Position numbers and translations under genes: made by a program
Assembly (NCBI RefSeq): GCF_039555335.1
Contig: NC_092646.1
Location: forward strand, 23,624,893-23,688,892
DNA: 64,000 nucleotides
Direction: 5' to 3'
DNA from: Amphiura filiformis
Lineage: Eukaryota > Echinodermata > Ophiuroidea > Amphilepidida > Amphiuridae
The notes under the pieces: generated by a model
The model's database searches: none
What the model was told of the DNA's origin: nothing
The model's input: only the letters and a program-made list of their open reading frames with translations
In this document: one piece after another, positions 7,591-30,112 of the stretch
Layout: each line of letters begins with the position of its first letter
Position numbering within the stretch: the first letter of the stretch is position 1

Positions 7591-7591
7591 G

Positions 7592-7614
7592 CTGTTAGCA
7601 GAGAAGATGAGAAT
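7592..7614. repeat. Left half of the palindromic integration site
   Basis: CTGTTAG (7592-7598) is followed by CAGAGAAGATGAGAA. The right edge of the retrotransposon shows the inverse, TTCTCATCTTCTCTG, followed by CTGTTAG (17825-17831). Together the two sides form an interrupted palindrome inside 7-bp direct repeats. Confidence 0.8.
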
Positions 7615-7747
7615 GATAAATTCACTTCGTTACGTGTTTAGAAGGGAATTGTTATCTCTTCGTAAGTGTGAGATCGATCAGTTAGTGTTATGCAAATGGG
7701 GTAGTGATGCGAGAAGTTTTTGTGTTGGGGTAATTTGGGTGTATCAG
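7604..7747 (+). repeat. Split direct repeat A1, first part
   Basis: It starts AAGATGAGAATGATAAATTC and matches A2 (16562 onward) at every position but one, just inside the edge. It is cut at GTATCAG (7741-7747) by an insertion and resumes at 8987 (tcattcgcggtcaccacg) up to 9019. Confidence 0.9.
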
Positions 7748-8979
7748 CACGGAATAGGCCTGGAAGCGGCACTAGACATTAGCATGAAGCCGCATTCATA
7801 TGTAAATAGCGTATTGTTATTTAAATTTGCGCCCAGACGTATTGAGGGCGACAGTCATGTTATCCAGACAGAGAATGTCTTGATGCGCCAGGCATGTCAA
7901 ATTGCTGAGTGAATGTGTATAAATCCCCTTTCTGTGTAGGTAATAAGCTAGTACATTTCGTGTTCCAGTTTGTTATAACAAAAAAATAAGTATTATATTA
8001 AATATATTAAGTGTATAAACTTTGAAATTGACGTGAATTTGAAGTGCAGAGCTCCAAATCTAGCTAAATCGTGTAGTGTGAAATTATGCTGTGTGACCCC
8101 CTCTGCGTGGTAGAATTATATTCATAAAACATTGAATTTAACATATAATATGGGCAGCCAACCACGATTTATCAGCATTTAAAAGATATATTAATTAACA
8201 AAGATAAATAATCAACAGTACAAATGACAATTTAACTAGTAAACAAGTCTGAAATCTTAAAATGTTGCCACGTGATTTCCCGAACACATGATATGTCTAC
8301 ATGTGACCATTATTCAGATTTACCGAAGTATTTGGAGTATGGTGCACGGCTTGCAGGCAACTGTGTATTTCTTTACCTCCGTATAAAATCAATAATTCAT
8401 GCTGGGAGCCAAGTAACATTCTGTCTGCTTAGTACATATTGGTATTTTATTTTACTTGAGAGCATATAGAAATACATAAAGACGAATAAGGCGCCATGAT
8501 GGAAAGCTATGGAAGGTCAGGTCGGGTATCAAAGGTTATTTTAACTTCAAATACTACTTGTGTTTCACACCTTGCCTCTGTCACGTATTTCCTTCATGTT
8601 ATTGACCTCAAGTCCTAATTTTGACTTTGCTATTGCAAAATGTCATTTCATATCAAATTAGTAGACTTTCTTTGAAACAAACATATCACTGGTGCCTGAT
8701 GGGAATATCCGTCCGCCATTTCATTAAACTGGATCGTTTTCGCCTGGTTTGCGCCCAGATGTATTGAGGGCGCGCTATACTCTCAATGAACAGGCAAAGT
8801 TCGCAAAACTAACAACGTTGTTATTTGCCAATAGCAATTAACATGATCCAAGGGGTCGAACATGAATTATTCATAACGGATCGATAACTGGCCTCACTTT
8901 CTAGCTAGTAAACCAGCGGAATTTTTCATAGGTTTTGCGTTGCTAATAGAACAACCGTGAATTTAGTGTCACCCCCTTG
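7748..8979. mobile_element. 1.2 kb insertion in A1 with 7-bp target duplication GTATCAG
   Basis: A2 shows the uninterrupted sequence across this point. Here the repeat breaks after GTATCAG (7741-7747) and restarts after a second GTATCAG (8980-8986), which dates this as a later insertion with a 7-bp duplication. It contains two partial copies of gcccaga(c/t)gtattgagggcg (7831, 8753). No inverted ends or convincing protein are visible, so the class is unknown. Short frames at 7607-7912 and 8272-8469 are not supported as genes. Confidence 0.75.
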
Positions 8980-8986
8980 GTATCAG

Positions 8987-9019
8987 TCATTCGCGGTCAC
9001 CACGCCACACGATTCATTT
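8987..9019 (+). repeat. Split direct repeat A1, second part
   Basis: TCATTCGCGGTCACCACGCC and the following 13 bases equal the end of A2 (16706-16738), completing the 177-nt A repeat after the insertion. Confidence 0.9.
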
Positions 9020-9084
9020 CATTCACTCGGTTCTCCATACATTTTCCGTTTGAATTTTGATATAACGCTTTCAATATTTCTTCA

Positions 9085-9804
9085 ATGGAAGAAGATAGCT
9101 CTATTTCGGACCAAGTCAGTGCTGATGTCCCACTTCCCCCAACTGGGAACTTGGATATTAATCAGATATCGGCTATCCTTGATAACAAACTATCCAAATT
9201 AAAGAGGGAGATTACGGAAGAGTCGGCATTCCAATTGACTTCAGTTGTGAAAAAAGCTAGACTGAATCCTGTACAGTTTAAGAAACAGGGGTGCCAGCAT
9301 CAGTACCAGCACAATGAGCAAGTGAAGGAGAAACTAGAAGAGGCAACCATAAGCATTGATGCAGGCAAATTTCAAAAGGCTAAAGAAGTTTTGGCAGAAG
9401 GTATAAACATTATAGACAAACGTCAAAAAATAATTAAAATAGCAGATAACCATGGTTGGGACACTGTTCAGGCGTACGTTTCGGACGATCTTGCCAGTGA
9501 TAGCGATGATGACAAGCGTCTATCAAAGGCCGTGCGCCAGGCGGAGTTCAAACGACGAGATCGTAAGCGGAAACGCTCTACCAGCACCAGGGGACGGGGC
9601 AGTTTTCGCTCCTTAAGCAGTTTCAATTCCAGCGCTTCCGCCGCCATCACCAGTAGACCTCAATTTCAGGGATCAGTCAGGGTCAACCGGAGTATGTACC
9701 AATCATGTTGGGCCTGTGGCCAAGTGGGGCACTTACAATACCAATGTCCTCAAAGATCGGGCGGAAGCACAGGCCAGCAATGGCAGGGAGGAAATAAAGC
9801 ATAG
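9085..9804 (+). CDS. Gag-like ORF1 of the PAT-like element
   Basis: Complete 239-residue frame from ATG at 9085 to TAG. Residues about 20-60 are acidic then helical. Residues 65-130 match the conserved core of DIRS/PAT ORF1 proteins (FKKQGCQHQYQHNEQVKEKL, then EGINIIDKRQKIIKIAD). Next come an acidic stretch (SDDLASDSDDDKR) and a strongly basic segment (about 150-170, KRRDRKRKR), and finally one CCHC zinc knuckle, CWACGQVGHLQYQC (C-x2-C-x4-H-x4-C). By analogy with Gag it should package the element RNA, with the knuckle binding nucleic acid. It lies directly after A1, as expected. The frame is intact although its neighbours are damaged. Function is inferred from family resemblance. Confidence 0.88.
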   Translation: MEEDSSISDQVSADVPLPPTGNLDINQISAILDNKLSKLKREITEESAFQLTSVVKKARLNPVQFKKQGCQHQYQHNEQVKEKLEEATISIDAGKFQKAKEVLAEGINIIDKRQKIIKIADNHGWDTVQAYVSDDLASDSDDDKRLSKAVRQAEFKRRDRKRKRSTSTRGRGSFRSLSSFNSSASAAITSRPQFQGSVRVNRSMYQSCWACGQVGHLQYQCPQRSGGSTGQQWQGGNKA

Positions 9805-10069
9805 TGATCGGGATAGTGATAAGATAAGTACACGTATTTTTGACGAATTTGAAATCGAAAAGAATTATGAGTATGAAGCGAAATTAAGGGGTATAATCCA
9901 CGCGTCCAGTACGCACTCGTTTCTAACTGAAATTTCTGTGAAATCTTGTCCGCGCAGTTCTTGCCGTCACGCGCGCGTCAAACTAAAAACTGCGTGGAGT
10001 GTGCGCCAGGCGCTGGTAAGAAGTTCAGCTACGCAAGAGTACCGTGTTTTCATCGCCATTTACCAATGA
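9805..10069 (+). pseudogene. Probable start of ORF2 leader, cut off
   Basis: A frame overlapping the end of gag (from 9716) stays open to 10069 and is acidic then basic, including DEFEIEKNYEYEAKLRG. The position just before the RT would suit the N-terminal leader of ORF2. It ends where a GAAA-rich microsatellite begins, so the link to the RT at about 11900 is broken. No motif proves the assignment. Confidence 0.4.
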
Positions 10070-10075
10070 TTTTTG

Positions 10076-10164
10076 TAAAAGAAAGAAAGATAAACAAAGA
10101 ATAAAAGAAGGAAAGAAATAACTAAAGAAAGAAAAAGTTCAGGAGTGAAAGAAAGAAAGAAGGA

Positions 10165-10204
<40 letters not shown>

Positions 10205-10460
10205 AAACTAATAAAAGGAAGAAAGAAAAGAGAAGGAATAAAAGGAAGATAAACAAAGAAAGACAGTGAAATAACAGAAAATTTTAGAATAAAGGATACT
10301 GAAAAAATTAATGTAATCAATCAAATAAATAACAACGACAGAAAGTGAGAAAGAATAAAAAGAAGAAAGGAAACGAAAACAAACAAAGACATGCAGAAGA
10401 AGAAAAGGTAAGTAAGAAGGAAAACAGAATTATATAATGAGGGAAAGGAAAGATAAAATA
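10076..10460. repeat. GAAA-rich microsatellite
   Basis: Purine-rich tract with a near-perfect (GAAA)n core at 10148-10205, decaying on both sides. Frames read through its complement are Phe/Ser-rich artefacts. Confidence 0.9.
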
Positions 10461-10719
10461 ATAATCAAGATAACAAAATAATAGACCTAGGATATCAAAC
10501 GGCCTTTTTTATTTGTCTTATAAGTAGTTTCTTATTTTACTGATTATTAATATAATCAAATTATTTCAATAGTATTTTAAGGTAAAATTCTGTAATTTGA
10601 AATACATATCACATGAAGTCAATTTTATTTTTTTAATAAAATGTATATTTTCACATCTGACTTACTTCGCGTGCAACTGACTTTATAACTTAATGATAAA
10701 AAAAATCGAACAATGTTGT

Positions 10720-11084
10720 CCCAGCAAACACAAAAAACGTTAAAACGTTTTAAACATTTGGGTTTTGATTAAGTAAATTAAATGTCGGGTTATATAAAGG
10801 TTATGAAAACGTTTTAATACGTTTTGTATGAAAACACACTACAATAATATTTCTAAAATGTTTTCAAAGTGTTATTGTAAAAAATATGTTTTGCAAATAG
10901 TTTTTGCCAAATATTTTGTCAACACTGAAATAACTTTATGTTAGAATGTTTACAGTATAACGTTTTTGAGTGTTTTGAAAACGTTTTATACCCTTTATAA
11001 CCCTTTAAATAACCCGACATTTAAACGTTTGCAACCTTTTCTAACCTTTGCGAATGATGTCGAAAATGTTTTGTGTTTGCTGGG
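10720..11084. mobile_element. MITE, CCCAGCAAACAC family, copy 1
   Basis: It begins CCCAGCAAACACAAAA and ends TTTGTGTTTGCTGGG. The inside is built from AACGTTTTAAA-type and CGGGTTATATAAAGG motifs in both orientations. It sits inside the PAT-like element between gag and RT. Other copies: 19082-19770, 31150-31841, 35306-35981, 37408-37792. Confidence 0.9.
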
Positions 11085-11890
11085 TACATGCCTAAAATGG
11101 GATGATATTTGAGTAATATAATATCATTCTAAACATGATAAATACATTGTAACGGGATCCGCTAATATTTAAGTTAATAATTAAAGGCCTATTCAGCATG
11201 TTCAGTGATACCCTGCAAAAAATGAACATTGTTTATAAATTGCATAGGAGTGAAGGATAAGTCATTAAAGTTGTCACAGGTAGGCCTACCAGTATTTTTG
11301 CTATATGCAAAACAACGAGAAAAACGGCAGTATTGACAAAGTTCAAATTCAATTCAATTTAAAATTACAGAAGAACTTATTGAGTGAAACTATATAACCT
11401 AGTACTTTGGAATCAAGAGGGTTAATAAAACCGAAGAAAATCACCCCACTGTCATGTTGCAGGTGTTTGCGATATCACCTACAATACGCGGACAATTTAG
11501 CGCGTATGAGCTGCGACAAGTTTTTGCGAGTGGCGCGCTATGATATCGTACTGGTATTTTGAACCAAAAAATATGCCATTTATGCTCAAATTGCAAAAAA
11601 AGTAACTCCGTGACCCCTATTTTTTATTAGCTTTAATGAAATATCCTATCAGTGCGCATATTATATCAAAAATAAGCAAAATTGTTCGGGTAGATTTTTA
11701 TTATAATCGAAAACATGTCTAAAATTTCCATTTTCCCATAGACGCCTGTACTAATTTTTCCCCAAAACAGCCTTTTTAAAATGGTTATTTCTCGAAAACT
11801 AACTCCGTGACCCCTCTTTTTTATTTTAGATTTTCGAAGTATATCGATGAAATTTAATTGGTACGAAGTTTAAGAAAAATCGTTCGGCAG
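11085..11890. other. Inserted or degraded DNA between gag and RT
   Basis: It contains a partial duplication: aactccgtgacccct followed by a T-rich tract occurs at about 11606 and again at about 11800, roughly 195 bp apart. No coding frame of note is present. It separates ORF2 from its expected leader. Confidence 0.5.
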
Positions 11891-11894
11891 GATC

Positions 11895-13853
11895 TTGTAT
11901 GGATTATACCCCTTAAATTCAGAATTCTCTGGAGTTGCAGGCCGTTTGCGCCGCTGTAAACATTACTGGTTCGATAATTTTAATCCTCCATTGTTTGTCA
12001 TTGATATCCTCAATAAGGGTTACGTAATTCCATTCACAAGTCTCCCGCCACCAGTGTATCTCAAGAATAATCGATCAAGTTTGGATCATCCGGATTTTGT
12101 CATCGAGGCCATTTCAAAGTTGTTAGAGGCAGGTAGTATTAAAGAACACAATTCACCCCCTTTCGTTGTAAATCCCCTCACAGTTTCTGAAGGCAAAAAA
12201 CTCAGATTGGTTTTGGACTTGAGACACGTAAACCAATATACATTCGTGTCCAAATTCAAGTACGAAGGTATCGCTACTTTGGCTGACATGTTTTGTAAAG
12301 ATTTTTATTTTTTCACCTTTGATCTTGAGAGCGGGTACCATCATATTGATATTTTTGAGCCCCACCAAAAGTTTTTGGGTTTTAGTTGGATGTATGGCAA
12401 TCGTGTCCGTTATTATACGTTTTCCGTTCTCCCGTTCGGGTTAAACACAGCTAGTCATTGTTTCACGAAAACGCTCCGACCTTTGGTTACAAGATGGCGT
12501 TCCATGGGGCATTGTTCTATTTTATATATTGACGACGGCATCTCAGGTCACGCTGACAAGATTACAGCTCTTGCGGCAAGCCATATCGTTCAGAAAGACC
12601 TAGCTTTATCTGGTCTTAAAGTAAGTGCGTCTAAAAGTGATTTTGTACCTAAACAATCAGGAGTATGGTTGGGTTTGTTGATTGATACCATCTCTATGCA
12701 GTTCAGTTTGCCCGGTAACAAGTTGGCAAAAATACAAAATGCCATTGCCGATTGTTTGAATAAGCGTTTGCAATTGATTCCCGTTCGAGATATTGCCCGT
12801 ATCGCGGGTTTTATATCTCTGCATCCGACGCTATCGGTCGTTTGACAAGATTGTTTTCTAGACATTTGTACAGATTGATCGAAACTCGCAATTCATGGTC
12901 AAGTAAGGTTTTTCTTTCTGAAGGTGCTATCAGCGAATTACAATTTTGGTACAAAAAATATAGCACGCGTGAATGGTCAGCCTATAAAACCCATTTTTTT
13001 TGCAACATCCGCAGTGTATTCCGACGCAAGTGATTCGGGTTTTGGGGGGTTTTCAGTTCAGCTGGTCGATTCAGTGTGTTCGGGAGTATGGTCCGAGGCC
13101 GAAAGTCGTGAAAGTTCAACAAGTCGTGAACTCAGAGCCATTTTGTATGTACTCCGCTCATTAGGACCAAAACTATCGGGTAAAAAGTTGAAGTCGTTTA
13201 CCGATAGCCAGAACGCTTGTCGTATTATTTCCGTGGGTAGTACAAACCCCAATTTACACGATTTAAGTATCAATGTGTTCAATTGTTGTTTACAGTTTGA
13301 CATCATTATTGAGCCTGAATGGCTCCCTCGTGATCTCAATACACGAGCAGACGAGTTAAGTAGGATCATTGATCCGGATGATTGGTCTTTGAATCGCAGT
13401 GTTTTCACATTTTTGGACAATCGATTTGGTCCACACACCATTGATAGATTTGCATCATATGACAACGCGCAAATCCCGCGGTTCAATTCAAGATATTGGA
13501 ATCCTGGTTGTGTAGCGGCTGACTGTTTTACGCAGAATTGGGTTCACGAGAACAATTGGGTCTGCCCTCCAGTTTCTATGATTTTGAACGCAGTGAAGCA
13601 CATGATGAAATGCAAAGCATACGGAACTGTGATAGTTCCAGAATGGCCATCCGCATCATTTTGGCCCGTCCTTTCACCAAAATTGGGTTCTTTGAAGAAA
13701 TATTTGGTGACTCACGTGATTTTGCCAAATTTGCAAGATTTGTGTAAGCCAGGTCGAGGGCAGTGCATTGCTTACAAAAAAGGAAAGCGTTTATTTGAAA
13801 ATGCTTTGCCGTTCAATTTGATCGCCATGAGGTTCGATTTCAGAAAAGCATAA
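11895..13853 (+). pseudogene. ORF2: reverse transcriptase - RNase H - DNA methyltransferase
   Basis: The frame opens at 11895 without a clear ATG; recognisable protein starts near GRLRRCKHYWFDNF. RT motifs in order: LRLVLDLRHVN, FTFDLESGYHHIDI, FSVLPFGLNTA, YIDDG (catalytic Asp pair, about 12527-12541), and GVWLGLLID. RNase H follows: YSDASDSGFGG, SSTSRELRAI, FTDSQNACRI and RADELSR. The C-terminal part (about 13430-13700) resembles the Dam-like N6-adenine methyltransferase domain of DIRS/PAT elements, with FAS(Y)DN, YWNPG and VCPPVSMI. The frame is lost between about 12800 and 12990: the bridging peptide ASDAIGRLTRLFSRHLYRL lies in another frame, and the original frame resumes after a run of eight T at about 12992. 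These are two compensating 1-nt shifts, so the copy is probably inactive unless they are sequencing errors. Confidence 0.9.
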
Positions 13854-13904
13854 AAAAGGACTATTATTGTATCTAAGCGAAAAAGCGCACATGCATCCGA
13901 GTTG

Positions 13905-14260
13905 TTTGTAATCCATGAGTGATTTTGTATTGTTTGTAGTCCTTGAATAATCCATGAGTGATTTTGTATTGTTTGCAGTCCATGAGTGACTAAAGAAACA
14001 GTCTACGAGAGACTTATCAATAACATGAATTCATTTGATAAACGATGTAATAAAGAACTGTTGCAATCCATGATGGATTTTTTACATAGTCCATGAGAGA
14101 TTATTTGATCCAGTCTATGAAAGACTACGCAGTAATCGAAATATTTTTTGACAGTTAACCAGTCCTTGATTATATAATCATCATTATCAATTTATATTGA
14201 GAGAAAGAGCATGTAAATCGTAATTTAACGCCAGATTTATAGTCCACGAGCGACAGGAGA
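13905..14260 (+). repeat. Series of 15-nt mini-hairpins between ORF2 and ORF3
   Basis: Related 15-mers occur at 13910, 13949, 13977, 14000, 14065, 14088, 14112 and 14241, e.g. AGTCTACGAGAGACT, AGTCTATGAAAGACT and AATCCATGATGGATT. Most fold into a stem of 4-7 bp. Where the left arm changes AATC to AGTC, the right arm usually changes GATT to GACT, so pairing is kept. See findings. Confidence 0.7.
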
Positions 14261-14402
14261 TAAATAAATAAACCGATTTCATGAAGAGTGTGTAATTTAT
14301 ATGTCAACGATATCAAATTCAGAGTTTTTTGATTTAATTAAGATGTTTTGTCAATTCTTCGCTTATGGTCCTGATCATGAATTTTGAATCAAAAAACATA
14401 AT

Positions 14403-15107
14403 TTGTACCAGAATTTGTCAATTATTTCGTATTTTGTAATAAGATGTTACCGCAGTTTCTATTGCAATATTTCGTTTTCACTCACGGCCACATTTAATTT
14501 TTCAGATGTACTAGACAGTGGAGTTTGGAGCGAGTTTTCATCTGATACTAACATTAGCAACAACGAATATCTCTCTGGTTTAGTTTCGTCTCTTCAAGAC
14601 ACTGCGTTGGTTTCAAAAGCCGGGTCTACTACGGACAAATATCGCGGAGGCTGGAAGCGATGGAAGTCTTTTGCACTTCAGTTTAATTTGAAAGTTTTTC
14701 CCGTCAAAGCTACTGAGTTAGCTCTATATATTGAGCATTTAAAGGCTTCGGCATCTTCTGCAGCTCCAATTGATACGGCTGTTTACAGTATAAGGTGGGC
14801 ACACAATTTGGCAGGTGTACCATCTCCCACAGATGATAATTTTGTTAAATTGATCGTAGAAGGAAGTAGGCGTCAGCTTGCAAAATGTAAATCACCAAAA
14901 GAGCCTATATCTTCTGAGGTTCTAGCAAAATTGGTAGCCGATAAAGGCGATTCGAATGCCTCATTGTTTGATCTTCGTTTACTATTTATATGTCTCGTGT
15001 CTTTTGCCGGCATGCTAAGATGTGAAGAGATTATATCTTTACGTGTACGTGATATTACATTTTTATCCGATCATATGTCTATATTTATACCAGGAAAGTT
15101 GAAAAAG
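14403..15107 (+). pseudogene. Tyrosine recombinase ORF3, N-terminal part
   Basis: The frame covers the SAM-like core-binding region (KYRGGWKRWKSFALQFNL, then TELALYIEHLKAS) and the first half of the catalytic domain, including the first conserved Arg in FAGMLRCEEIISLRVRDI. It should make the strand-exchange enzyme that integrates the circular cDNA. A pyrimidine tract with CAG directly before ATG (tttttcagatg, about 14501) could be a splice acceptor or chance. Reading ends in an insertion after GKLKKK, so the enzyme is split here; the rest is at about 15902-16333. Confidence 0.9.
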
Positions 15108-15901
15108 AAGGAGGAAGAATGGAATTATATCCTTGAGATAATCCCGTAGGTTATCCTGTCGCACCTATTCATAGTCCTTTATTCTCAAGTAGTTACACAT
15201 CTACTTGAAAGTAGCCTTTGATGTGATGTGCCTTGCCGACTACGGTTGATTAATTTTCACTCCAGAATTGAAACCATATCCAATGTTTCTATAGATAATT
15301 CCTTGAAAGTATGACACGTGTGTGTTAAGTACCTGATGTTGCTCTGCAGGGATACCGCACGTGGATACTATAAGAAAGAAATGTAGTTTTGTAAAGATTC
15401 CAAAAAAATCCGCCCATTTTGGAATATATATTAATTATTTAGGTGAATGTTTTAGGATTTTGTTAGAAACGGGATGATTTTTGATCATCTATATTTTATT
15501 GTTTTAATGTATTTTCCTGTCATTTCCTGCAAACCTAATAAAGATATTTTGATAATTGAAAATAGTCTGTATCATAAATCGTAGAGGTTGAAAGCGTAAC
15601 CAAGCGTGCAAAATTATTATTTGCCATGGAACTTCGGTCATATTTTATTTGAAATAAACTGGATGTTAGGATCTGCATGCATGGTATGCATGGTATTGAT
15701 GGTATACAGACACTGACCTTTCCCTAAAACCAGTAAGCAGCAACTTGTGTATCACACCCGTCATGGGTTCGAACCCTTTTGTTGTATTTTATTGTTAAAC
15801 CTAAATAGCGTGATTGCTTTTGAATGAGCGGCAACACACATATTTTGTTTGAGGATAGCTGGATCTATCTCCTTCTTTTACATCTTCTCTGATTTATACC
15901 A
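15108..15901. mobile_element. About 0.8 kb insertion splitting the recombinase
   Basis: The recombinase coding breaks after GKLKKK and resumes with KNDQLRQGHSVYIARSG. The inserted DNA is AT-rich and non-coding. Near its right side it has gggttcgaaccc (about 15764-15775), a pol III B-box-like word, but no matching A box was found. Exact borders and target duplication are unclear because both junctions are A/G-rich. Confidence 0.6.
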
Positions 15902-16333
15902 AAGAGGAAAAATGACCAATTAAGGCAAGGGCATTCAGTTTATATCGCCAGATCAGGCAATCCTACTTGCCCAGTTGCCATGGCGGAGCGTTTCATCGAA
16001 ATGTTGGGAATCGCAGATAAGTCGTCACATCCGGTAGTTTGCGGATTTCGTCGTTCAAAACGTCAAGGTTTGAAACCCACAACAAAAGCGATTTCATATA
16101 CTACTGCGAGAGAGTTGATCTTAGCTGGTTTATCTCCTTACGTCAGCGATCCTACCACTCTGGGTACTCATAGTTTAAGAGCAGGGGGCGCAACCGAAGC
16201 CGCCTCTACGGGTTCGGTAAACGAAAGATGTATTACTAGGCAAGGAGGATGGAAATCTTCGATATCCAAGGACATGTACATTAAGGACTCAATGTCAAGT
16301 AAATTATCTGTGTCACGTGCGATGAAGCTTTAA
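15902..16333 (+). pseudogene. Tyrosine recombinase ORF3, catalytic C-terminal part
   Basis: After the insertion the frame continues through HSVYIARSGNPTCPVAMAER to the hallmark triad: H-x-x-R in THSLRAGGATEAA, the W box in RQGGWKSS and the nucleophilic Tyr in KDMYIKDS. It ends at a normal stop (16331-16333) about 95 nt before B1. Catalytic residues are intact; only the insertion disables the gene. Confidence 0.9.
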
Positions 16334-16428
16334 GTGTCATATTTCATGATCGTTAAATTTTAGGCGTAAATCGGCTAATTTTTGGTAAATCTATCCCGTT
16401 TTAACACCCCTTTCCGAACTTTTTTGCT

Positions 16429-16571
16429 CGCGAGATAGCTTGCGTGTGTGGCCGCACCTATACCATGATTAAAACATGTGTAACTTTAATGAACAAAACA
16501 AGAATTATTTAGACTGGTGTGTTTTATTGGTTTTCGGGTGGGTATGTATGCATTCGGGGCTAAGATGAGAT
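16429..16571 (+). repeat. Split direct repeat B1
   Basis: 143 nt from CGCGAGATAGCTTGCGTGTG to GGGGCTAAGATGAGAT, identical to B2 at 17668-17810 by eye. It overlaps the start of A2 by the shared word AAGATGAGA, so B1A2 is the joined circle-type junction expected of PAT-like elements. Confidence 0.9.
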
Positions 16572-16738
16572 TGATAAATTCACTTCGTTACGTGTTTAGA
16601 AGGGAATTGTTATCTCTTCGTAAGTGTGAGATCGATCAGTTAGTGTTATGCAAATGGGGTAGTGATGCGAGAAGTTTTTGTGTTGGGGTAATTTGGGTGT
16701 ATCAGTCATTCGCGGTCACCACGCCACACGATTCATTT
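16562..16738 (+). repeat. Split direct repeat A2
   Basis: The uninterrupted 177-nt copy of A1, from AAGATGAGATTGATAAATTC to CACACGATTCATTT. It shows what A1 looked like before its 1.2 kb insertion. Confidence 0.9.
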
Positions 16739-17667
16739 TTTTCCCGGGGTCCAATAATATATATATTTACATGTATATCATGCAGTTCATAATTTGTAAT
16801 AATTAGATTAGGAGATATATTTCGCTCGTTATTGTCAAAAATATTGAATTTTCTAAATTAGTGATTGACCTTGGAGCATTCCAAAATTTTTGTCGTTCTG
16901 TTACCGCTTGGTCGCCATCGGGGGCCGGATAGGAATTTCCAGAGTATTTTCCCTGATTTGTTCAGGTTTTCTCTCTGTTTTCGCCTATCCCAAGGTCGTT
17001 TGAGTTTTGCCATTGGTTTCATTGCATGTATTATGATGCCATTATCATTCGCATTTTTTGATGATTGCATATCTGAATATTTCATTCCACCAATTTCGGC
17101 TATTGTTCTTTTCAGTCATTTTTCTCGTTCCTATACTTCTAAGTGTATACATTTGTCAAAAGGACACTCTTGGATCACGAAGTCAGCCATTTATTGATTT
17201 CCAATGTTTATGTGATAAAGTTATTATTTATTTGTGTAGTTCATGATAAACTCGTTAATATAACCTGTTTCGTGTTTTATGTCCTTGGACAGTTCCACTT
17301 CAGTGTCAGTTGATATGCGTTGAATCGCATTTATTCGATCACGAAATGATCAAAAACCATGACGGTTTTCGTTTGAATATGAATCAGCAGTGGAAAGTGG
17401 AAAGTGGGAAGTATTTAATATTTTGAATATCAAAAACTCACGATTTGTTTAATTCATTTATTAATGTTTTAATAAATTATGCGCACTTGCAGCAATTATG
17501 TCAGGCAAAAGGATGTGTTATTAGTGAGTACATTATTTAACAGTTTATGCGCCAGAATTTCAACAATGTCAATGTCAATGATAATGCATAATGTCAACGT
17601 TAATAATAAGAATAATGTTAATTATAATAATAATTGTATTGTATATTAGATATTATATGATGTAGAG
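16739..17667 (+). other. Internal segment between A2 and B2
   Basis: Non-coding spacer of the retrotransposon 3' region. It is AT-rich with a TAA/TTA-rich stretch at 17590-17660. No protein motif was found in frames such as 16865-17197. Confidence 0.6.
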
Positions 17668-17810
17668 CGCGAGATAGCTTGCGTGTGTGGCCGCACCTAT
17701 ACCATGATTAAAACATGTGTAACTTTAATGAACAAAACAAGAATTATTTAGACTGGTGTGTTTTATTGGTTTTCGGGTGGGTATGTATGCATTCGGGGCT
17801 AAGATGAGAT
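17668..17810 (+). repeat. Split direct repeat B2 (right end)
   Basis: Identical to B1. Its last bases AAGATGAGAT run directly into TCTCATCTTCTCTGCT, the right half of the flanking palindrome. Confidence 0.9.
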
Positions 17811-17831
17811 TCTCATCTTCTCTGCTGTTAG
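17809..17831. repeat. Right half of the palindromic integration site
   Basis: ATTCTCATCTTCTCTGCT is the exact inverse of 7597-7614. It overlaps the 7-bp word CTGTTAG (17825-17831), also present at 7592-7598. Confidence 0.8.
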
Positions 17832-18021
17832 TATACATTGTATAATATACAATGTATATACGAGACTATAAAATAGGTATTAAATGATTTAACTAATTGT
17901 CTAAAATTACAGAAATACTCTTCTAACAATATATACAAAATAGATTACATCTAAAATAAATTCCAATAATATTAAAAGCAATCAGTCAAACCACTAAAAA
18001 GCACCATGCTCAAAAAGTATA

Positions 18022-18802: not shown

Positions 18803-21121
18803 TTGTGAGCCATTCCATGTCAACTCCTGGGATGTGCACCGCAACACCGCAGCACCTCTTCAATTTTTTTCTTTTTCTGTGTGGTGGTAGATATTGATGA
18901 GAAAGTAAATTCCTGAAAATTTGAGCTTCATACGCTATTTCGTTTTCCCGTGGCATCAATTTGAAATTTAGGGGGATCAGCGTAAAAAATGTGTCGCAAC
19001 GCGAAAGACGATGTTTGGAGGTCCATAAATGTATAAAGAGAACCCCCTACAACTTTGAAAAGTATGTATCCTGGGGTACTTCCCAGCAAACACAAAACGT
19101 TTTCGACATCATTCGCAAAAGGTTATAAAAGGTTGTCAGAAAACGTTTAAATGTCGGGTTATATAGAGGGTATATTAAGAGTATAAAACGTTTTCATAAC
19201 CTTAAAAAACATTTTTTGATAATCTATTGCTCAGCAAACAAAAATGTTTTACAGAAATCGTTTAAATGTTGGGTTATATAAAGGGTATAAAAACGTTTTA
19301 ATAACATTCCAAAAACATTCTTGAAAACTTGATACAAAACATTCTAAACAGAATGTTATTTTGGGGTTGAAAAAATATTTTGCGAAAAATGTTTGCCCAA
19401 AATATTTTCAATAACGTTTTAAATACGTTTTCATGACCTTTATATAACCCGACATTTAAATGTTATTAAAAGGTTTTGAAAAAAACATTTTAAAAACATT
19501 TCTGTGTTTGCTGGGTTCAAATATTTTAACATAATGTTATTTAAGTATTGACACAATATTTGGCAAAAATGTTTGCAAAAATAGTTTACAATAACGTTTT
19601 TTGAAAACATTTAAAAATATTGTTGTAGTGTGTTTTCATACAAAACGTTTTAAAATGTTATGACCTTTATATAAACCGACATTTTAATGTTATTAAAACG
19701 TTTTTACCTAAACCAAAAGCCAAAATATAACTTATTTAAAACGTTTTAAAAACGTTTTGTGTTTGCTGGGTTAATTGTGTAGAGTTCAAATCTGGCATCA
19801 GGAAACTTGTAACTCCTTTACTTTAAAAGATACAGGGCCCTCAAAATGCAACTTTGTCCATCCAGGACCAACTTCGGGGGTCAGAACTCCAAAAGTAAAA
19901 ATAATTTTTGTCCATTTTTTGCCAGTCGGAACCCTTTGGTAGAACATTACTCTTATCCACTATTGAGTCAATTAGGATAATTTTAGCTGAGATATTACCC
20001 ATGCAAAACTCCAATAGTACATTTTTTTGTACATTTTGACCCCCCTGTAAACCAATGTCAGGCAATTTTCCCCACCATCAACTTTAGGTATGTTGAAAAT
20101 ATGTTCTTGGGCAACATTTCTGAGAAATAGTGGCTTGGGGTCTTGATGACTTTGCATTAAAAACATCAGTTAGGCTTGCCTACTCACATAGGAGTCATTC
20201 CAGCCACATCAACAAAAAGGGTTGGTTGGTCATTGGTCATCTCCTCAAATTTTGCTGAAAATCATTTCTAGCATACCTCTATGAGCATAATGAACACATG
20301 GAAAAAATGAATGCTCAACTCCAAGCGGTTTTGGAGATATGGCTTGTCAAAATTTGGCCCAGATCCCCACTTTTTGCTCTCTCGAGTCGCGTCGTTGAAT
20401 TAGTAGCGTTTTGGGACATTCATATTTTGACTTTGCAAAAAAGATATTATACTGAAAAGTACTAACTGGGGTGACTTTTACCAAGAAAAACAGAATCTGG
20501 CCTCATGTTTTTTAATGCAAAGTCATCAAGACCCCAAGCCACTATTTCTCAGAAATATTGTCCAAGAACATATTTTCAACATGCCTAAAGTTGATGGTGG
20601 GGCAAATTGTCTGACATTGGTTTTCAGGGGGTCAAAATGTACAAAAAATGTACTATTGGAGTTTTGCATGGGTAATATCTCAGCTAACATTATCCTAATT
20701 GACTCAATATTGGATAAGAGTAATGTACTACCATAGGGTTCCGACTGGCAAAAAAATGGACAAAAAATTATTTTTACATTTTGAGGGCCCTGTATCTTTT
20801 AAAGTAAAGGAGTTACAAGTTTTTGATGCCAGATTTGAACTCTACACAATTAAGTACCCCAGGATACATACTTTTCAAAGTTGTAGGGGTTCTCTTTATA
20901 CATTTATGGACCTCCAAACGTCGTCTTTCGCGTTGCGACACATTTTTTACGCTGATCCCCCTAAATTTCAAATTGATGCCACGGGAAAACAAAATAGCGT
21001 ATGAAGCTCAAATTTTCAGGATTTTACTTTCTCATCAATATCTACCACCACACAGAAAAAGAAAAAAATTGAAGAGGTGCTGCGGTGCACATCCCAGGAG
21101 TTGACATGGAATGGCTCTTGT
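18803..21121. mobile_element. Large foldback (about 600-bp arms) with a MITE nested in the left arm
   Basis: The left arm 18803-20166 is inverted relative to the right arm 20507-21121. Shared tracts include ccattccatgtcaactcctg, ctttcgcgttgcgacacatt and ggccctgtatcttttaaagt. Removing the MITE at 19082-19770 makes the arms nearly equal in length. Frames inside the two arms (e.g. 19841-20166 minus, 20515-21104 plus) are mirror shadows with no known domain. Superfamily unknown. Confidence 0.85.
19082..19770. mobile_element. MITE, CCCAGCAAACAC family, copy 2
   Basis: CCCAGCAAACACAAAACG at the left and TTGTGTTTGCTGGG at the right. Internal near-copies of the ends at about 19231 and 19508 show it is a multi-module form. 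The opposite arm of the host foldback preserves the empty site (gtacttaattg), which shows a TT duplication here. Confidence 0.9.
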
Positions 21122-21511: not shown

Positions 21512-22228
21512 TCAATCATGATCAGTATGAGGAACTCCATCTTGACTTCCATCATAATCAATTGTTTCAAATTCTTCCGCTAACACAGTTTCCATCGCAA
21601 CGGCGTTAAACTTCCCGCTTCTCTCTGGTGTTGGAGTATGTTGGAGTTCTGTAACTTGACTATCGACCATATCCATTGGTTCTACCTGCTCCTTGGGCAT
21701 ACAACAAAGGACACCCATGCGATACAACTGAAGAATAACCAATATCGAATTCTTAACAGTGAAAAATATCATCATCTGGTTGATGACACGTAGGTCGACG
21801 ATGAGGTACAACCTCATGGCCAGATACGGCGCGTCTTGCAGGCACATGGTGATGATCAGTGCCCATATCTCATTTTCGCAACAACCGCCGCAAAATGATC
21901 TCGATCTCTTCGTAGCTGCCATTCGGGGTCGTGGCGCAGATACCGATGTTAATACCAAAGTAAACTGGAGCAGACTCCACGACCAGACGCCAAGGATTAA
22001 GGAAATGAGCAGAAAGTCGCAAAGAACCCTTTGAACTTTGAGTGTTTCTAGGGAGAATTCAAGACTATCAGCGGCTATTCCGACGTAGACAAGGAGCAGT
22101 TGAGAGAGTTGATCACGACTTAGTTGGCCTTTGGGAAGCAACCATCGGCCCAGGATGAGGAGAAAGAACATGATCTGCTCTAAGACAAGAACCCATGAGT
22201 CGGCACCCAAGGAGATGGGAATGGATAC
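21512..22228 (-). CDS. TMEM26: TMEM26-like coding exon 3 (last)
   Basis: 717 nt after acceptor AATGCAG, phase 0, beginning VSIPISLGADSW and ending at the stop 21512-21514. It holds the most conserved block of the family (GRWLLP, RDQLSQLLL, DAPYLAMRLYLI, VINQMMIFFTVKN, LQLYRMGVL) and a variable acidic C-terminus. Confidence 0.92.
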   Translation of the reverse strand, partial: VSIPISLGADSWVLVLEQIMFFLLILGRWLLPKGQLSRDQLSQLLLVYVGIAADSLEFSLETLKVQRVLCDFLLISLILGVWSWSLLQFTLVLTSVSAPRPRMAATKRSRSFCGGCCENEIWALIITMCLQDAPYLAMRLYLIVDLRVINQMMIFFTVKNSILVILQLYRMGVLCCMPKEQVEPMDMVDSQVTELQHTPTPERSGKFNAVAMETVLAEEFETIDYDGSQDGVPHTDHD

Positions 22229-25200
22229 CTGCATTCAAACAAAATGATGAATAGATACATTATATAACTAAAATCGAGTTTGTTTCTTGGGTCCAAAAAC
22301 GATCCCGCATTTTTGACGGTACGAACGAGAACCAACTTAAATTTAACCTTTTCTCCAAAGCTCGAGTGCTACAATATTTTAGTAGAACCACGAGTTTATA
22401 GAACATTATTTAGGGTATGTATTGCATGAAATAAACTTATGTTGTCACTATTTCGAGTCTGTTTTGTGCGCTTGAGACCGCTCAAATACAATAAAGGCTT
22501 AATTCGCCGTAGAACTAGTGATGTAACAAGATTGGGTTAATTACCATAGCAATAGGTTTACACTGTTTTTTTAATGTATTGCCCCGCACTATAAGCAAGA
22601 TGCACTCATCACATTGTATATGTGTGTAATGATAGATTTACTACGATACCGCTCTTTTCAAAGACACTAATCTTACAGGTGCGCAATCAGCATGATGTAA
22701 AAAGTCTATAAAATTACGATCCAGGTATTTATCCATGTTCATTGATAATCTATTTGGTACAGCCTATTTGGTACAAAGTAATACGTCACGTTTTATATTT
22801 ATCCATGTTTATAAAAGATCATTGGACCTACCCCGTTAATATTGCGTAAACCAGTAGCATTCATAACAATTTCGATGCCACATTCCTCCAGCTCGTTTTC
22901 ATCCCGATAATCTCTCCTAGTTTGGTAGAGGTCTACTTGTAGAAACCATATACCAGGTATTATGCACATAAGATACAGTAATACGCTAGGACAAAACCTG
23001 AAAACAAATCAGTAAAAAAAAAGGAAAATAGGTATAATAAATTTATGTAAAATGGTTATACTCTGGATACCGGTAAAAGGTGGTCTTACGGTCAAAATCA
23101 AGGGGCTTTCTTGGCTTTCTGATTACAAATCGCCTGCCAAAAAGCGGATATGTTAGGAATGGGCAACTTTAAGGGGTCTTTTAGAGCTAAAATTAATTAT
23201 CAATATAAGGGGTCTTTCAGTGCTCTGTTTTGGTAAAATTCAAAGGTATTTTGGAGATGTGCGGCCCCCCAAACAGGCACTGCAAAAACAGTGTCTAGAG
23301 ATTAAAACCATTCTAGACACAATTTTATCCTAGGATTTAAAGTAGATAGCTACTTCATCAATACCAGTATCAGCAGTAGAAAGCTACTTCATCAATACCG
23401 ATATCAGCAGTAGATAGCTACTTCATCAATACCGGTATCAGCAGTAGATATAGCTACTTCATCAATACCAGTATCAGCAATAGATAGCTACTTCATTAAT
23501 ACAAGTATCAGCAGTAGATAGCTACTTCATCAATATCGGTATCAGCAGTAGATAGCTACTTCATTAATACAAGTATCAGCAGTAGATAGCTACTTCATCA
23601 ATACCAGTATCAGCAGTAGATAGCTACTTCATCAATACCAGTATCAGAAGTTAAGGGCTACTTCATCAATACCAGTATCAGCAATAGATAGCTACTTCAT
23701 CAATACCATTTTCAGCAGTAGACAGCTACTTCATCAATATCATCATCATCAGTAGATATAGCTACTTCATCAATGCCAGTATCAGCAGTAGAGAGCTACT
23801 TCATCAATACCAGTATCAGTAATAGATAGCTACTTCATCAATACCATTTCAGCAGTAGAAAGCTACTTCATCAATACCAGTATCAGCAGTAGATAGCTAC
23901 TTCATCAATACCAGTATCAGCAGTAGATAGCTACTTCATCAATATCGGTATAGACAGCTACTTCATCAATATCATCAGTAGATACAGGGTGAGTAAAAAA
24001 AAGTGCAATAGAGAAAAGAATCCATCTTTATTTAAGAACCGAGTTGAACTTTTTAGGTTTTAAAACATTTTGTAAATAACACATCCATTAGTGATCTTGT
24101 GTGAAAAAATCAAGGAATTAACATTTACCGTTTTGTTTTTATGACACATTTTATAGCGATACCCAATTTTAATGTTTGTCCAAGAGACATCTAAAATTTG
24201 AATGTCAGCCCACTCTGTGTAAGGTAGATTTGGAACAAATGCCATTTTTTTTAACCTCATTGGCATAGAAATAAAATGGAGCACCCAAATTGTTATTGTC
24301 CTTGGTCTTGTTTAACATGTTTAAGGAGAAGAAACATTATTGTTATTTTCATTTTCCCTTTATTTTGAGTATGTTTATTCTCTATCAAAAACATATAAAT
24401 TTGTGGGCGGGTTTTTCAAATGTCGAAATGAAATGCGCGCAAATTGAAGTGGAGTGAATTACAAAATATCCAGTAAGTTGGCCATACTGGGGTTTAAAAA
24501 ACTGGAGTTGGAGTCGAGTGAGGCATGAAGGATCTAAAGTAATGTTAGAAAGTTTGTTTAAACAGAAAAAAAATTAAAATAACGCAAAAATCAACATTAT
24601 TTAAGTTAAAGTCAGTTTCAGAGCTGGTGCCTTTGTCGTGCATTGTGTGCTCTCATTCAAAATACATGGTACCTCGTGGACAAATAATGAAATTGGGTAT
24701 CGCAGCAAAAGGACTCATAAAAATTAAATGGTAATAGCGAGTCACTTCATTTTTTCACAGAATGTGACTATTGAGTGTGGCATTTATAACGAATTTCAAT
24801 AATGGGACAGTTCAACTTGGTTCTTACATAAATATCGATTCTTTGCTCTATTGCACTTTTTTTGACTCACCCTGTAGCTACTTCATCAATACCAGTATCA
24901 GCAGTAGAGAGCTACTTCATCAATACCAGTATCAGCAGTAGATAGCTAATTTATCAATACCAGTATCAGCAGTAGATAGCTACTTCATTAATACCAGTAT
25001 CAGCAGTAGATAGCTACTTCATCAATACCAGTACCAGTATCAGCAGTAGAGAGCTACTTCATCAATACCAGTATCAGCAGTAGATAGCTAATTTATCAAT
25101 ACCAGTATCAGCAGTAGATAGCTACTTCATCAATACCAGTATCAGCAGTAGATAGCTACTTCATCAATACCAGTATCAGCAGTAGATAGCTACTTCATCA

Positions 25201-28200
25201 ATACCAGTATCAGCAGTAGATAGCTACTTCATCAATACCAGTATCAGCAGTAGATACCTACTTCATCAATACCATGCAGTATCAGCAGTAAATAGCTACT
25301 TCGTCAATGCCGGTATCAGCAGTAGATAGCTAATTTATCAATGCCGGCATCCGCAGTAGATACCTACTTCATCAATACCATGCAGTATCAGCAGTAAATA
25401 GCTACTTCGTCAATGCCGGTATCAGCAGTAGATAGCTAATTTATCAATGCCGGCATCCGCAGTAGATACCTACTTCATCAATACCATGCAGTATCAGCAG
25501 TAAATAGCTACTTCGTCAATGCCGGTATCAGCAGTAGATAGCTAATTTATCAATGCCGGCATCCGCAGTAGATACCTACTTCATCAATACCATGCAGTAT
25601 CAGCAGTAAATAGCTACTTCGGCAATGGCGGTATCAGCAGTTAGATAGCTACTTCATAACCAGTATCAGAAGTAAAGGGCTACTTCGTCAATACCAGTAT
25701 CAGCAGTAGTGAGTTACTTCATCAATACCGTTATCAGCAGTACACAGCTACTTCATCAATGCCAGTATCAGCAGTAGATAGCTACTTCATCAATACCATT
25801 TTCAACAGTAGACAGCTACTTTATCAATATCATCATCAGCAGTAGATAGCTACTTCATCAATACCAGTATCAGCAGTAGATAGCTACTTCATCAATACCA
25901 GTATCAGCAGTAGATACAAGTATCAGCAGTAGATAGCTACTTCATCAATACCAGTATCAGCAGTAGATAGCTACTTTATCAATACATGTATCAGCAGTAG
26001 ATAGCTACTTTATCAATACCAGTATCAGCAGTATATCCTACTTCATCAATACCAGTATCAGCAGTAGATAGCTACTTCATCAATACCAGTATCAGCAGTA
26101 TATCCTACTTCATCAATACCAATATCAGCAGTAGATAGCTACTTCATCAATACCAGTATCAGCAGTAGATAGCTACTTCATCAATACCAGTATCAGCATC
26201 AGATAACTACTTCATTGATACCAGTATTAGACTATTTCATCAACACATTAGAAAAAGTTAGAGGACATCTCCCATTCACCCGCGTGTGGTCTATTGCACT
26301 TTTTTTGACTCACCCTGTAGCTACTTCATCAATACCAGTATCAGCAGTAGAGAGCTACTTCATCAATACCAGTATCAGCAGTAGATAGCTAATTTATCAA
26401 TACCAGTATCAGCAGTAGATAGCTACTTCATTAATACCAGTATCAGCAGTAGATAGCTACTTCATCAATACCAGTACCAGTATCAGCAGTAGAGAGCTAC
26501 TTCATCAATACCAGTATCAGCAGTAGATAGCTAATTTATCAATACCAGTATCAGCAGTAGATAGCTACTTCATCAATACCAGTATCAGCAGTAGATAGCT
26601 ACTTCATCAATACCAGTATCAGCAGTAGATAGCTACTTCATCAATACCAGTATCAGCAGTAGATAGCTAATTTATCAATGCCGGCATCCGCAGTAGATAC
26701 CTACTTCATCAATACCATGCAGTATCAGCAGTAAATAGCTACTTCGTCAATGCCGGTATCAGCAGTAGATAGCTAATTTATCAATGCCGGCATCCGCAGT
26801 AGATACCTACTTCATCAATACCATGCAGTATCAGCAGTAAATAGCTACTTCGTCAATGCCGGTATCAGCAGTAGATAGCTACTTCGGCAATGGCGGTATC
26901 AGCAGTTAGATAGCTACTTCATAACCAGTATCAGAAGTAACTAACTACCTAACTATTTCATCAACACATTAGAAAAAGTTAGAGGACATCTCCCATTCAC
27001 CCGCGTGTGGTGAATTGACTATACGTAATAATCACACATTCAAGGGTATAGACCAACTGCACGTATCCACTCCTTTCGAAAGCCGTATCTTGCTCAAAAA
27101 TGCATTTAAGCCAAAATATCACAATTAATATTGATTTGAATATGTTATCTTCATATTTCATTAAAAAATACTTACAAAATCGACTCAGGTCGAGAGAGTG
27201 GCGCAATGGTTAGGGTACTTGCCTTTAGTGCATGAGGTCCCGGGTTCGATTCCCGGCGGTGGCGATTTGCTGGGATATTGACTTGGAAAAAAACCCTTCT
27301 GTAGATTAAATTCAGACTTCCGTTCTCCCCGTGGTTCATTTAGAATTGGGTAAATGAATCATGAAAGTACTCCGTCCTTCGGAGGGGACGTTAAGCCGTC
27401 GGTCCCGTGTACAGAGAGCCATACCTGTATACATGTATCTCGCAGCCAGTTTCGAAAAGAGTAGGGTGTTAACCCCTGACTGTTCCCAACCCATCCCGGT
27501 GTTCAAATGGACCCCAATGGAAATAAGCTTCAATAGAGGCTTTCTTGGGTTATCCAGGGTTGTCAAAACCCGAACAAATCAAATCCAAAAAAAACTCAGG
27601 TACCGATGTAATTTCAACCAAGCCTTTCACTGTTTCTTAGTGAATCAAGGCCCGATAATGCCATTGTCGCTGTGGATGGCGGAGTGCTACCATTCAGACT
27701 ACATTCATAAAAATATCAAACTGGCACTCTATAGTATCGACCATAAGGTATATTCGAGCCAAATTTGGACACCTTCCGGGTATTTTCCCTTGATGTACCA
27801 TATAATATTCATAAATATTGGTCGGACACCACCCAGTAAATTCTCATTTACATTGTGATCATCCACAGCAGTGAACGCCATACACCAAGTGTTTCTAGAA
27901 TCCTTATAGAATAAGATTCATTTTAATGCTAATTTATTGCACTATAAGGAAGCCTGTTTACCTTTTTGAAATAGCCGATTGGGAGGATTTTCAATGAAAA
28001 TTTTTTGTGTGTGTCAAAACTGAAGCATCGTATGTAGAATAAATATCAACTGTAGGCCTACATTATATAACGGTTTGTGATACTCAATCGCGGCACAATT
28101 TTTTCTGTTTATTGCAGCAAGTTTTTTTAAAACATTTTTTATTTTTATTAAAGCGTTTTATACCCAATATACTCACCATTTCCATTCCCCATTCTCAGTA

Positions 28201-28436: not shown

Positions 28437-28439
28437 CAA

Positions 28440-29384
28440 ATCATATCTATTTCTGGTGGTAATTTATAATTGTTGTTATTCACTTATGTTGTTATAAATT
28501 TTCAAGGGGTGCCACACTAGCGACGAGCGTGTGTCGACTACAGACGACAAGTAGGGCCTACCAATTTTTTTAAAGAAACATTTTTCGAATTGTAAATTTT
28601 CATGACCATATTTGGAATCAGCAGGAAAAATGCATTAAATTGAGTACAAGCAAGCCTAGTATTTTTTCAGTGGTTCTTAAGATAGCTCTTGATATTTTGA
28701 GAAAATATCTAAAAATTTTGAGTTTTATGTGAAGCCTATGGCTAGCACGCAGAGCATTAACAAAAGAAACAAAACTAAAGCAAACAAATAATCGAACAAA
28801 ACAAAGCAAAGAAACGGGATTTCTCGTACTTATTCTTTGTTTATTTTGGCGCCACAACTTTTGTCTTAATTTTGATGTCTTATTCACGATTAGTATTGTT
28901 GACCCAAACAAAAAAAGAGTGTATCCCCCGATACTGTGAGACTAGGTCATACACTAGGATCCAAAACATGCTCATCTATCAAGGCACAGCTCTTTAACCC
29001 CAATACATTTGCACATTCATTGAATGACCTTTGAAAATTTGGGTACAAAAACTCATACTCTGAAACTTGAGGTCAAATTTTGCACTATGATTGTTTAATT
29101 GAGGTTATTGAACTATATATGCCATTGGGATGAGGCCATTGTGGTCCATATAGTCATATGACAAATAAATGACAGTGCTTAATTAAATGTAACATATTGT
29201 AGAGATTTCTTTTCAACAAAATTGTATAATTATGTCACTATTTCCCCGCCCGTCGTATTTTAATCCCAAAAGCGAATGGGCATGCACAGGAAAAACTGTA
29301 AAAGCACGGTGTTTTGTTCGCTGTGGTTTTGTTTTTGTTGCTTTTTTGTCTTTTGTTGTTTTGAATGTCTGTGTTAGTGTTACC
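28440..29384. other. Region 5' of the TMEM26-like gene
   Basis: AT-rich DNA that should hold the 5' UTR and promoter. No convincing TATA, CpG cluster or further exon can be defined by eye. Confidence 0.4.
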
Positions 29385-30110
29385 CTATTTTGACAGTAGG
29401 CTATATTCGGTTTTTGGGTGTTTTTACAGTATATTCGTGTTTTATTTTGGTGGGTTTTTTTACAGTGTATTCGGTTTTTTGGTGGGTTTTTTTACAGTAT
29501 ATTCGGTTTTGGGGGTGTTTTTATAGGCCCTACTTAAAAAGCAATAACAAAGACAAGATGTTTTCTCTGCAGGTAATCCTTCTTCATCACGTCCATTGGG
29601 CTATTCCATTTAAAATCCACACTACCCCTGTGGAAGATTTAGCTAAAGTCTTCCACGGGTCGAAGGAGTAAGAGTTTTGAATAGAATACACAATTCTCTT
29701 TGAAATACTTGCTCCAGTTGTGGAAGATATAGGTAAAGCCATAATACAGTGGGAGTGTGGGTTTCAATATGATTAACCCTGAACAATTACATTTGAAAAA
29801 CATACTCCCTCTGTAGAAGATATTTCCAGAATCTTCCACAGGGGTATAGTGTGGATTTCAAATGGAATAACCTGCCATTTGACTGGTATGCTTGTGTCTG
29901 GATCTGGTCCTTCCATCTTGTCGTTCAGTAGGCATAGGCAACCAAAAACACCCAAAAACCGAATATACTGTGAAAAAACCAGCCAAAAACCCGAATATAC
30001 TGTAACAAACACCACAAAACCGAATATACTGTAAATAAACACCCGAAACCGAATATACTGTAAAAAAAACAAAAAAACAAAACAAACACCGAATATACTG
30101 TAAAAACTGC
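29385..30110. mobile_element. Foldback-like element with tandem sub-repeats in both arms
   Basis: The left arm (29385-29525) holds several units of acagtatattcggtttt with a T-rich spacer. The right arm (29938-30110) holds the same words inverted (aaccgaatatactgt), five or more times. The centre carries a MITE of the CTATTCCATTT family (29598-29872). Tandem units inside inverted arms recall Foldback-type transposons; superfamily unknown. Confidence 0.7.
29598..29872. mobile_element. CTATTCCATTT foldback MITE, copy 2
   Basis: gggctattccatttaaaatc at the left, gtggatttcaaatggaataa at the right, with alternating tggaagat/atcttcca modules between. Same architecture as the copies in the HAAO introns. 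Confidence 0.9.
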
Positions 30111-30112
30111 AT

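Follow-up and report, generated by a model that had tools for sequence, protein, structure and literature searches.

We describe the integration site of a PAT-like tyrosine-recombinase retrotransposon of the DIRS order in a 64,000-nt stretch of the ophiuroid Amphiura filiformis (contig NC_092646.1; this whole stretch is hereafter the window, and positions are counted from its first letter). The element, a single copy at 7604-17811, lies at the centre of a short inverted repeat bounded outside by direct repeats, and both of its junctions are reproduced exactly by insertion into a 29-bp odd palindrome. On balance, we favour a reading in which this palindrome was a pre-existing relic of two hAT transposon ends standing end to end, and in which integration of the retrotransposon was guided by half-sites. 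The flanks, the repeats, the arithmetic of the junctions and a hAT-like insertion carrying the same end are all present in the locus.

Junctions and the reconstructed target site

The left flank (7592-7614) reads CTGTTAG-CAGAGAAGATGAGAAT and the right flank, up to 17831, reads TTCTCATCTTCTCTG-CTGTTAG. Eighteen bases are perfectly complementary across the element (7597-7614 against 17809-17826, with a separation of 10,194 nt), which bears out the original prediction of a PAT-like element centred between inverted arms with CTGTTAG outside both. In the window, CTGTTAG occurs at 7592, at 17825 and at one other site, 48887, and the 8-bp form GCTGTTAG at 7591 and 17824 only. The direct repeats were first given as 7 bp long, a length that holds outside CAGAG...CTCTG and grows to 8 bp when the right arm and the repeat are taken to have the arm's last G in common.

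Three candidate empty sites were scored against both junctions. The 29-bp odd palindrome CAGAGAAGATGAGA-A-TCTCATCTTCTCTG, that is CAGAGAAGATGAGAATCTCATCTTCTCTG, was the sole model of the three with 0 mismatches at both junctions, and it offers two equivalent exchange points, one on each side of a single T. The perfect 30-bp palindrome that had been proposed from joining the flanks was rejected as the empty site, since it left 11 mismatches, mostly through a one-base shift. With the central-A site, the A at 7613 would be derived from the target, which accounts for the position of the sole mismatch between the A1 and A2 repeats (7613 A against 16571 T, 1/177) at the core.

The half-site AAGATGAG directly precedes the AWT core on the B end of the element and in each arm of the palindrome. 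Both strands of the window hold 7,935 AAT/ATT sites, four of which match the B end over at least 8 bases beside the core; these four, namely the palindrome arms together with B1 and B2, are preceded by AAGATGAG. At each of the remaining 7,931 the match extends over at most 5 bases. Similarly, AAGATGAGA is found in the window solely at 7604, 16562, 17801 (the B2 end) and, on the opposite strand, 17811. The site at 16562 is the B1A2 junction, which was correctly predicted to carry a half-site. Allowing up to 3 mismatches, CAGAGAAGATGAGA occurs 9 times in the window against a shuffle mean of 4.52, a count of 9 being reached by 4 of 100 shuffles. The geometry of the target, CAGAGAAGATG-AGAATCT-CATCTTCTCTG, comprises 11-bp arms and a 7-bp spacer, and recombinases typically bind 11-13-bp inverted repeats spaced by 6-8 bp (PMC3212892; this and the other papers are cited from the excerpts available).

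The sequence at the B1A2 junction, GGGGCT-AAGATGAGATT-GATAAATTC, has no CAGAG to its left and no TCTCATC or TCTCATCTTCTCTG to its right. Because B1A2, thought to be the template of the ends, lacks them, target DNA is the best reading for CAGAG and for the right arm TCTCATCTTCTCTG, and the most likely one for the palindrome arms as such. This assignment depends on a published model of replication, proposed for DIRS1, in which the internal junction stands for the ends of the circular intermediate once joined (PMC3266345). The inverted arms could instead be a fixed terminal inverted repeat carried by the retroelement family, as also considered in the original prediction, and they are indeed perfect and adjoin the element directly. 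Yet B1A2 contains neither outer arm, and direct repeats stand outside the arms although the model predicts no target duplication. Within the limits of that model, we give fixed ends very little credence. A reading of the left flank as a B2 end left by a different copy was rejected, since CAGAG, rather than GGGCT, stands ahead of AAGATGAG.

In the course of events that we favour, the 29-bp palindrome would have been present in the genome before the retrotransposon, with 7 bp (AGAATCT) between two inverted 11-bp ends CAGAGAAGATG and its own 7- or 8-bp duplication on the outside. Reverse transcription would have produced a circular DNA in which the B end was joined to the A start, as kept in B1A2 (CTAAGATGAGATTGATAA). 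The recombinase may then have paired the circle junction with the palindrome, the AAGATGAG half-sites serving as a guide, and a single reciprocal exchange at the palindrome centre, beside the lone T after the central base, would yield both observed junctions. Such a palindrome would be a good target because both arms carry AAGATGAG, as does the B side beside the core, and also because its 11-bp inverted arms and short spacer resemble a tyrosine-recombinase site. The circular intermediate, the recognition of half-sites and the hAT origin of the palindrome at 7599/17824 are steps that we infer.

Origin of the palindrome and competing explanations

The palindrome arms match the right end of the 801-bp insertion in the recombinase gene (Table 1) at 11/11 terminal bases and at 13/16 overall, and its left end at 11/16. 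In the window, the 11-mer CAGAGAAGATG occurs at three sites, namely both arms and the end of this insertion. The two ends of the insertion are alike at 22/30 positions, the right end being CAGAGAAGATG read inward, and the 8-bp reading of its duplication is preferred because both ends then begin with CAG. hAT transposons have ends of 10-25 bp and duplications of 8 bp (PMC3942097). A hAT-like origin of the palindrome is likely because the 11-base end is common to the 801-bp insertion and because direct repeats flank the palindrome, which is thus probably a minimal hAT-like insertion with its two ends nearly back to back. The suggestion that the retroelement entered a tiny hAT-like insertion is thereby strengthened, a separate insertion ending in CAGAGAAGATG beside matching 8-bp duplications; it is compatible with the suggestion of a preferred target, and the two together are favoured.

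The palindrome may alternatively have no hAT history, being a native recombinase site or a palindrome of another kind, with 7-bp repeats that arose by coincidence or belong to the site itself. Its 11-bp arms and 7-bp spacer do have the geometry of a recombinase site (PMC3212892), and a second, unrelated odd palindrome at 17832-17858 adjoins the right repeat. Against this, the arms begin with CAGAG and have 11 bases in common with the end of another insertion, and direct repeats adjoin them on both sides, which makes such an origin very improbable. The earlier proposal of a preferred or native recombinase site is supported in part, since AAGATGAG is present in each arm and on the B side of the element's junction; one copy cannot demonstrate recurrence.

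In a composite scenario, the retroelement entered a hAT-like element at an earlier time and a hAT transposase later moved the whole 10.2-kb unit by its 14-18-bp inverted ends, creating the CTGTTAG duplication. The perfect inverted ends and the direct repeats beside them are what one expects of a mobilised unit, and a hAT-like insertion with an identical 11-bp end is present in the locus. However, hAT elements usually require ends longer than 11-14 bp, and no observation demands a second move of this element, of which a single copy is known. The scenario has a precedent in MarCry-1_FO, a Crypton-mariner composite in which the inverted ends of a DDE transposon and a target duplication enclose a recombinase element, which a DDE transposase mobilises by way of 16-bp inverted ends (PMC3212892). 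The MarCry composite exists in several copies and brings along a mariner transposase of its own, whereas one copy is seen here and the 8 scanned open reading frames (ORFs) contain no transposase. We regard the composite as unlikely, while acknowledging that a single copy cannot separate it from half-site-guided integration into a hAT relic.

A number of observations weigh against the latter reading, several of them concerning the target site itself. A 29-bp site with a central T leaves 1 mismatch and needs just one change after insertion, and the zero-mismatch fit of the central-A site is partly by construction, as the site was built from the same flanks. No inverted repeat of at least 7 bases is present in the B1A2 junction, where just the B side resembles the target half-site; three of the four half-sites would thus be alike in the pairing of circle and target, not all four. 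In addition, AAGATGAGANT with at most 1 mismatch occurs 6 times in the window against a shuffle mean of 5.98, showing no enrichment. In the model proposed for DIRS1, a 3-bp junction and an identical target triplet suffice and no duplication is made (PMC3266345). These last two points would equally suit a chance landing, in which the 3-bp AWT core was enough and a locus rich in transposons supplied both the palindrome and the AAGATGAG match by coincidence. We consider this quite unlikely, since 8 further bases match beside the core, a level reached at 0 of the 7,931 other sites, and the insertion lies at the centre of the 29-bp feature.

The hAT origin meets difficulties of its own. The duplication around the palindrome is 7 bp if CAGAG...CTCTG is complete, 8 bp requiring a shared or lost G, and 29 bp would be unusually short for a hAT relic. 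The 801-bp insertion admits a second reading, in which the duplication is the 9-bp ATTTATACC and the left end is AGG rather than CAGG. A scan of the window for hAT structures of 20 bp to 4 kb, with YARNG ends and 8-bp duplications differing at no more than 1 base, returned 24 candidates against 25-38 in five mononucleotide shuffles within 200-base blocks; two candidates had at least 10/14 end bases alike, against 0-1 in the shuffles. The outcome is uninformative, and by its rules the scan overlooks both the palindrome, whose arms lie 10 kb apart and out of register, and the insertion in the recombinase gene, whose left end is CAGGA. It is the 9-bp reading and the unenriched loose half-site matches that slightly reduce our confidence in half-site-guided integration at a hAT relic.

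The element is also seen in a single copy, which cannot show a recurrent target preference, and searches for relatives added none. These searches covered viral, prokaryote, plasmid and phage collections, not animal ones, where absence is weakly informative. No relatives of the reverse transcriptase protein, the palindrome pattern AAGATGAGANTCTCATCTT or the methyltransferase segment were found in viral contigs, and the protein with RNase H and methyltransferase had no relative in plasmids and phages. The C-terminal part of the recombinase gave 3 pattern matches in viral contigs and 40 in prokaryote genome contigs, and the reverse transcriptase block gave 89 and 384, respectively, with zero confirmed in either case.

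Structure of the element and its surroundings

The repeats follow the order A1-ORFs-B1A2-B2 and are thus split direct repeats (Table 1), with identities of 176/177 for A and 144/144 for B. The A repeat has the 177 nt originally stated, A1 being split by a 1,232-bp insertion; the B repeat is 144 nt long, not 143. The RNase H and Dam-like methyltransferase ORF lies in the frame of the reverse transcriptase, from which 2 in-frame stops separate it, and the three domains belong to one pol. The C-terminal part of the recombinase has zero match to PF00589. The R, HxxR, W and Y contexts of the gene were identified by eye. A comparison with Tre recombinase gave a weak E of 0.71, ranked under an unrelated chain at E 0.052. 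Given the weak Pfam match, the gene is named from its position in the gene order, the contexts identified by eye and the repeat structure.

Table 1 Retrotransposon copy, its insertions and its flanks in the window
Feature	Positions	Strand	Remarks
Left direct repeat GCTGTTAG	7591..7598	+	7-bp CTGTTAG = 7592-7598
Left palindrome arm CAGAGAAGATGAGA	7599..7612	+	read as target DNA; AAGATGAGA (7604-7612) common to the B end of the element
A1 repeat, first part	7604..7747	+	144 nt, resumes at 8987-9019
1,232-bp insertion in A1	7748..8979	.	7-bp duplication GTATCAG at 7741-7747 and 8980-8986
A1 repeat, second part	8987..9019	+	33 nt
Gag-like ORF with CCHC zinc knuckle	9061..9804	+	PF00098, E 1.3e-4
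Miniature inverted-repeat transposable element (MITE), 365 bp	10720..11084	.	16-bp perfect ends CCCAGCAAACACAAAA; longer relatives at other positions of the window
Reverse transcriptase ORF	11874..12845	+	PF00078, E 7.4e-14
RNase H and Dam-like methyltransferase ORF	12879..13853	+	PF17917, E 4.9e-6; PF05869, E 8.4e-8
Tyrosine recombinase, N-terminal part	14388..15090	+	first-Arg type context LRCEEI; PF00589, E 0.3 (weak)
801-bp hAT-like insertion in the recombinase gene	15091..15891	.	duplication ATTTATAC at 15083-15090 and 15892-15899
Tyrosine recombinase, C-terminal part	15893..16333	+	HSLR, GGW and MYI contexts
B1 repeat	16429..16572	+	0/144 differences from B2
B1A2 overlap AAGATGAGATT	16562-16572	+	presumed circle-junction core
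A2 repeat	16562..16738	+	overlaps B1 at 16562-16572
B2 repeat	17668..17811	+	terminates in AAGATGAGATT
Right palindrome arm TCTCATCTTCTCTG	17811..17824	+	read as target DNA
Right direct repeat GCTGTTAG	17824..17831	+	7-bp CTGTTAG = 17825-17831

The repeat layout, the methyltransferase and the zinc knuckle fit the echinoderm form of the Pat1-like group as given in the available text of PMC4157794. The zinc-knuckle Gag places the element with Pat1-like elements, not with Kangaroo or Toc3. The element does not show the traits by which DIRS1-like elements are told, namely terminal repeats in inverted orientation together with internal complementary regions; its repeats are direct and B1A2 does not carry the inverted arms. 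Between the methyltransferase and recombinase ORFs, short repeats around AATCCATGAGTGATTT occupy 13905-14127, partly in tandem with a 39-bp period.

The copy is broken by at least three insertions, namely 1,232 bp in A1, the 365-bp MITE and the 801-bp hAT-like insertion, and by subtraction it would measure ~7.8 kb without these three. The A and B repeats are virtually identical despite the three insertions and the two in-frame stops in the body, from which it follows that the copy may have been defective at its last move, or the insertions may be very recent. The 1,232-bp insertion has ends beginning with CACGG/CAAGG and a 7-bp duplication that resembles the 7-bp repeats around the palindrome, and inside it the 25-nt sequence TTTGCGCCCAGAYGTATTGAGGGCG is repeated, at 7826 and 8748. 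No second copy of either the 801-bp or the 1,232-bp insertion was found in the window at E 1e-3, with queries that started at 15093 and 7749 (true starts 15091 and 7748). No transposase domain was detected in the 8 ORFs that were profile-scanned.

Several further features surround the element. Adjoining the right CTGTTAG, 17832-17858 forms a second odd palindrome, TATACATTGTATA-A-TATACAATGTATA, with 13-bp arms and a 1-bp centre; it is one of 7 in the window with arms of at least 10 and centres of at most 6, where five Markov sequences give 0-2. Four MITE copies with ends CCYAGCAAACAC... are found at 10720-11084, 19082-19770, 31146-31840 and 35307-35981, and a partial copy near 37406-37743. The copy at 31146-31840 lies exactly between two 34-bp minisatellite arrays (30151-31145 and 31841-32121), and 23341-33283 holds five arrays of one 34-bp unit (TAGCTACTTCATCAATACCAGTATCAGCAGTAGA) across 10 kb. 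A further large array, with a 37/111-bp period, occupies 59843-63000. An ORF on the reverse strand (21512-22234) matches Tmem26 (PF09772, E 4.6e-54), which points to an animal genome, and a tRNA-like match on the forward strand (27198-27257; Rfam RF00005, 35.4 bits), which ARAGORN did not call, is possibly a tRNA-derived repeat.

Relation to known systems and significance

The element itself is an ordinary member of an established kind, and it is the junction that is informative. With the PAT-like elements of the echinoderm-form Pat1-like type it shares split direct repeats, a B1A2 downstream of the putative recombinase, reverse transcriptase, RNase H and Dam-like methyltransferase in that order and a zinc-knuckle Gag (PMC4157794); in contrast to that group, the present copy bears three insertions and in-frame stops. 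Its junction has 8 target-matching bases beyond the 3-bp core, a property that we did not find described for the group in the excerpts available. DIRS1-like elements have the same reverse transcriptase, RNase H, methyltransferase and, here putative, recombinase genes, junction-matched ends and an ATT-type core (PMC3266345), but their terminal repeats are inverted and those here are split and direct. Of the elements annotated in the same paper, 23 start and end with NTT, most commonly ATT, and these termini resemble the AWT core of the present element.

Nesting of a recombinase retroelement inside another mobile element has been described before. Endogenous virophage elements of Cafeteria harbour 91% of the type 1 Ngaros, and 4 of the 20 insertions that could be analysed are in virophage terminal inverted repeats (PMC8547959), likewise placing a DIRS-order recombinase retroelement inside another mobile element. 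Ngaros differ in having no methyltransferase, and in the available text of that paper their preference is tied to ORF1 by the authors and a half-site match is not described. As to hAT transposons and hAT MITEs, the insertion at 15091-15891 has their CAG-start inverted ends and 8-bp duplications, and the palindrome arms have the same 11-bp end; the palindrome departs from them in being just 29 bp long, with a 7-bp duplication unless a G is shared, and in that no transposase was found in the 8 scanned ORFs. Among the matches listed in a literature search, judged by titles and the starts of abstracts, there was no report of recombinase retroelements targeting hAT ends or palindromes.

To our knowledge, how DIRS-order retrotransposons choose their targets is poorly known. 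One clean junction, with the exchange placed beside one base and an 8-base half-site match, suggests a concrete and testable target rule, which is interesting although it rests on a single event. Extended to the family, the rule would be that PAT-family recombinases select targets by an extended half-site that agrees with the B side of the junction in their own circle, with hAT end-to-end palindromes acting in this genome as ready-made, lox-like docking sites, a generalisation that we put forward tentatively and with considerable doubt. If the pattern were recurrent, transposon relics would be landing pads for recombinase elements and, if true, one class of transposon would build the landing sites of another.

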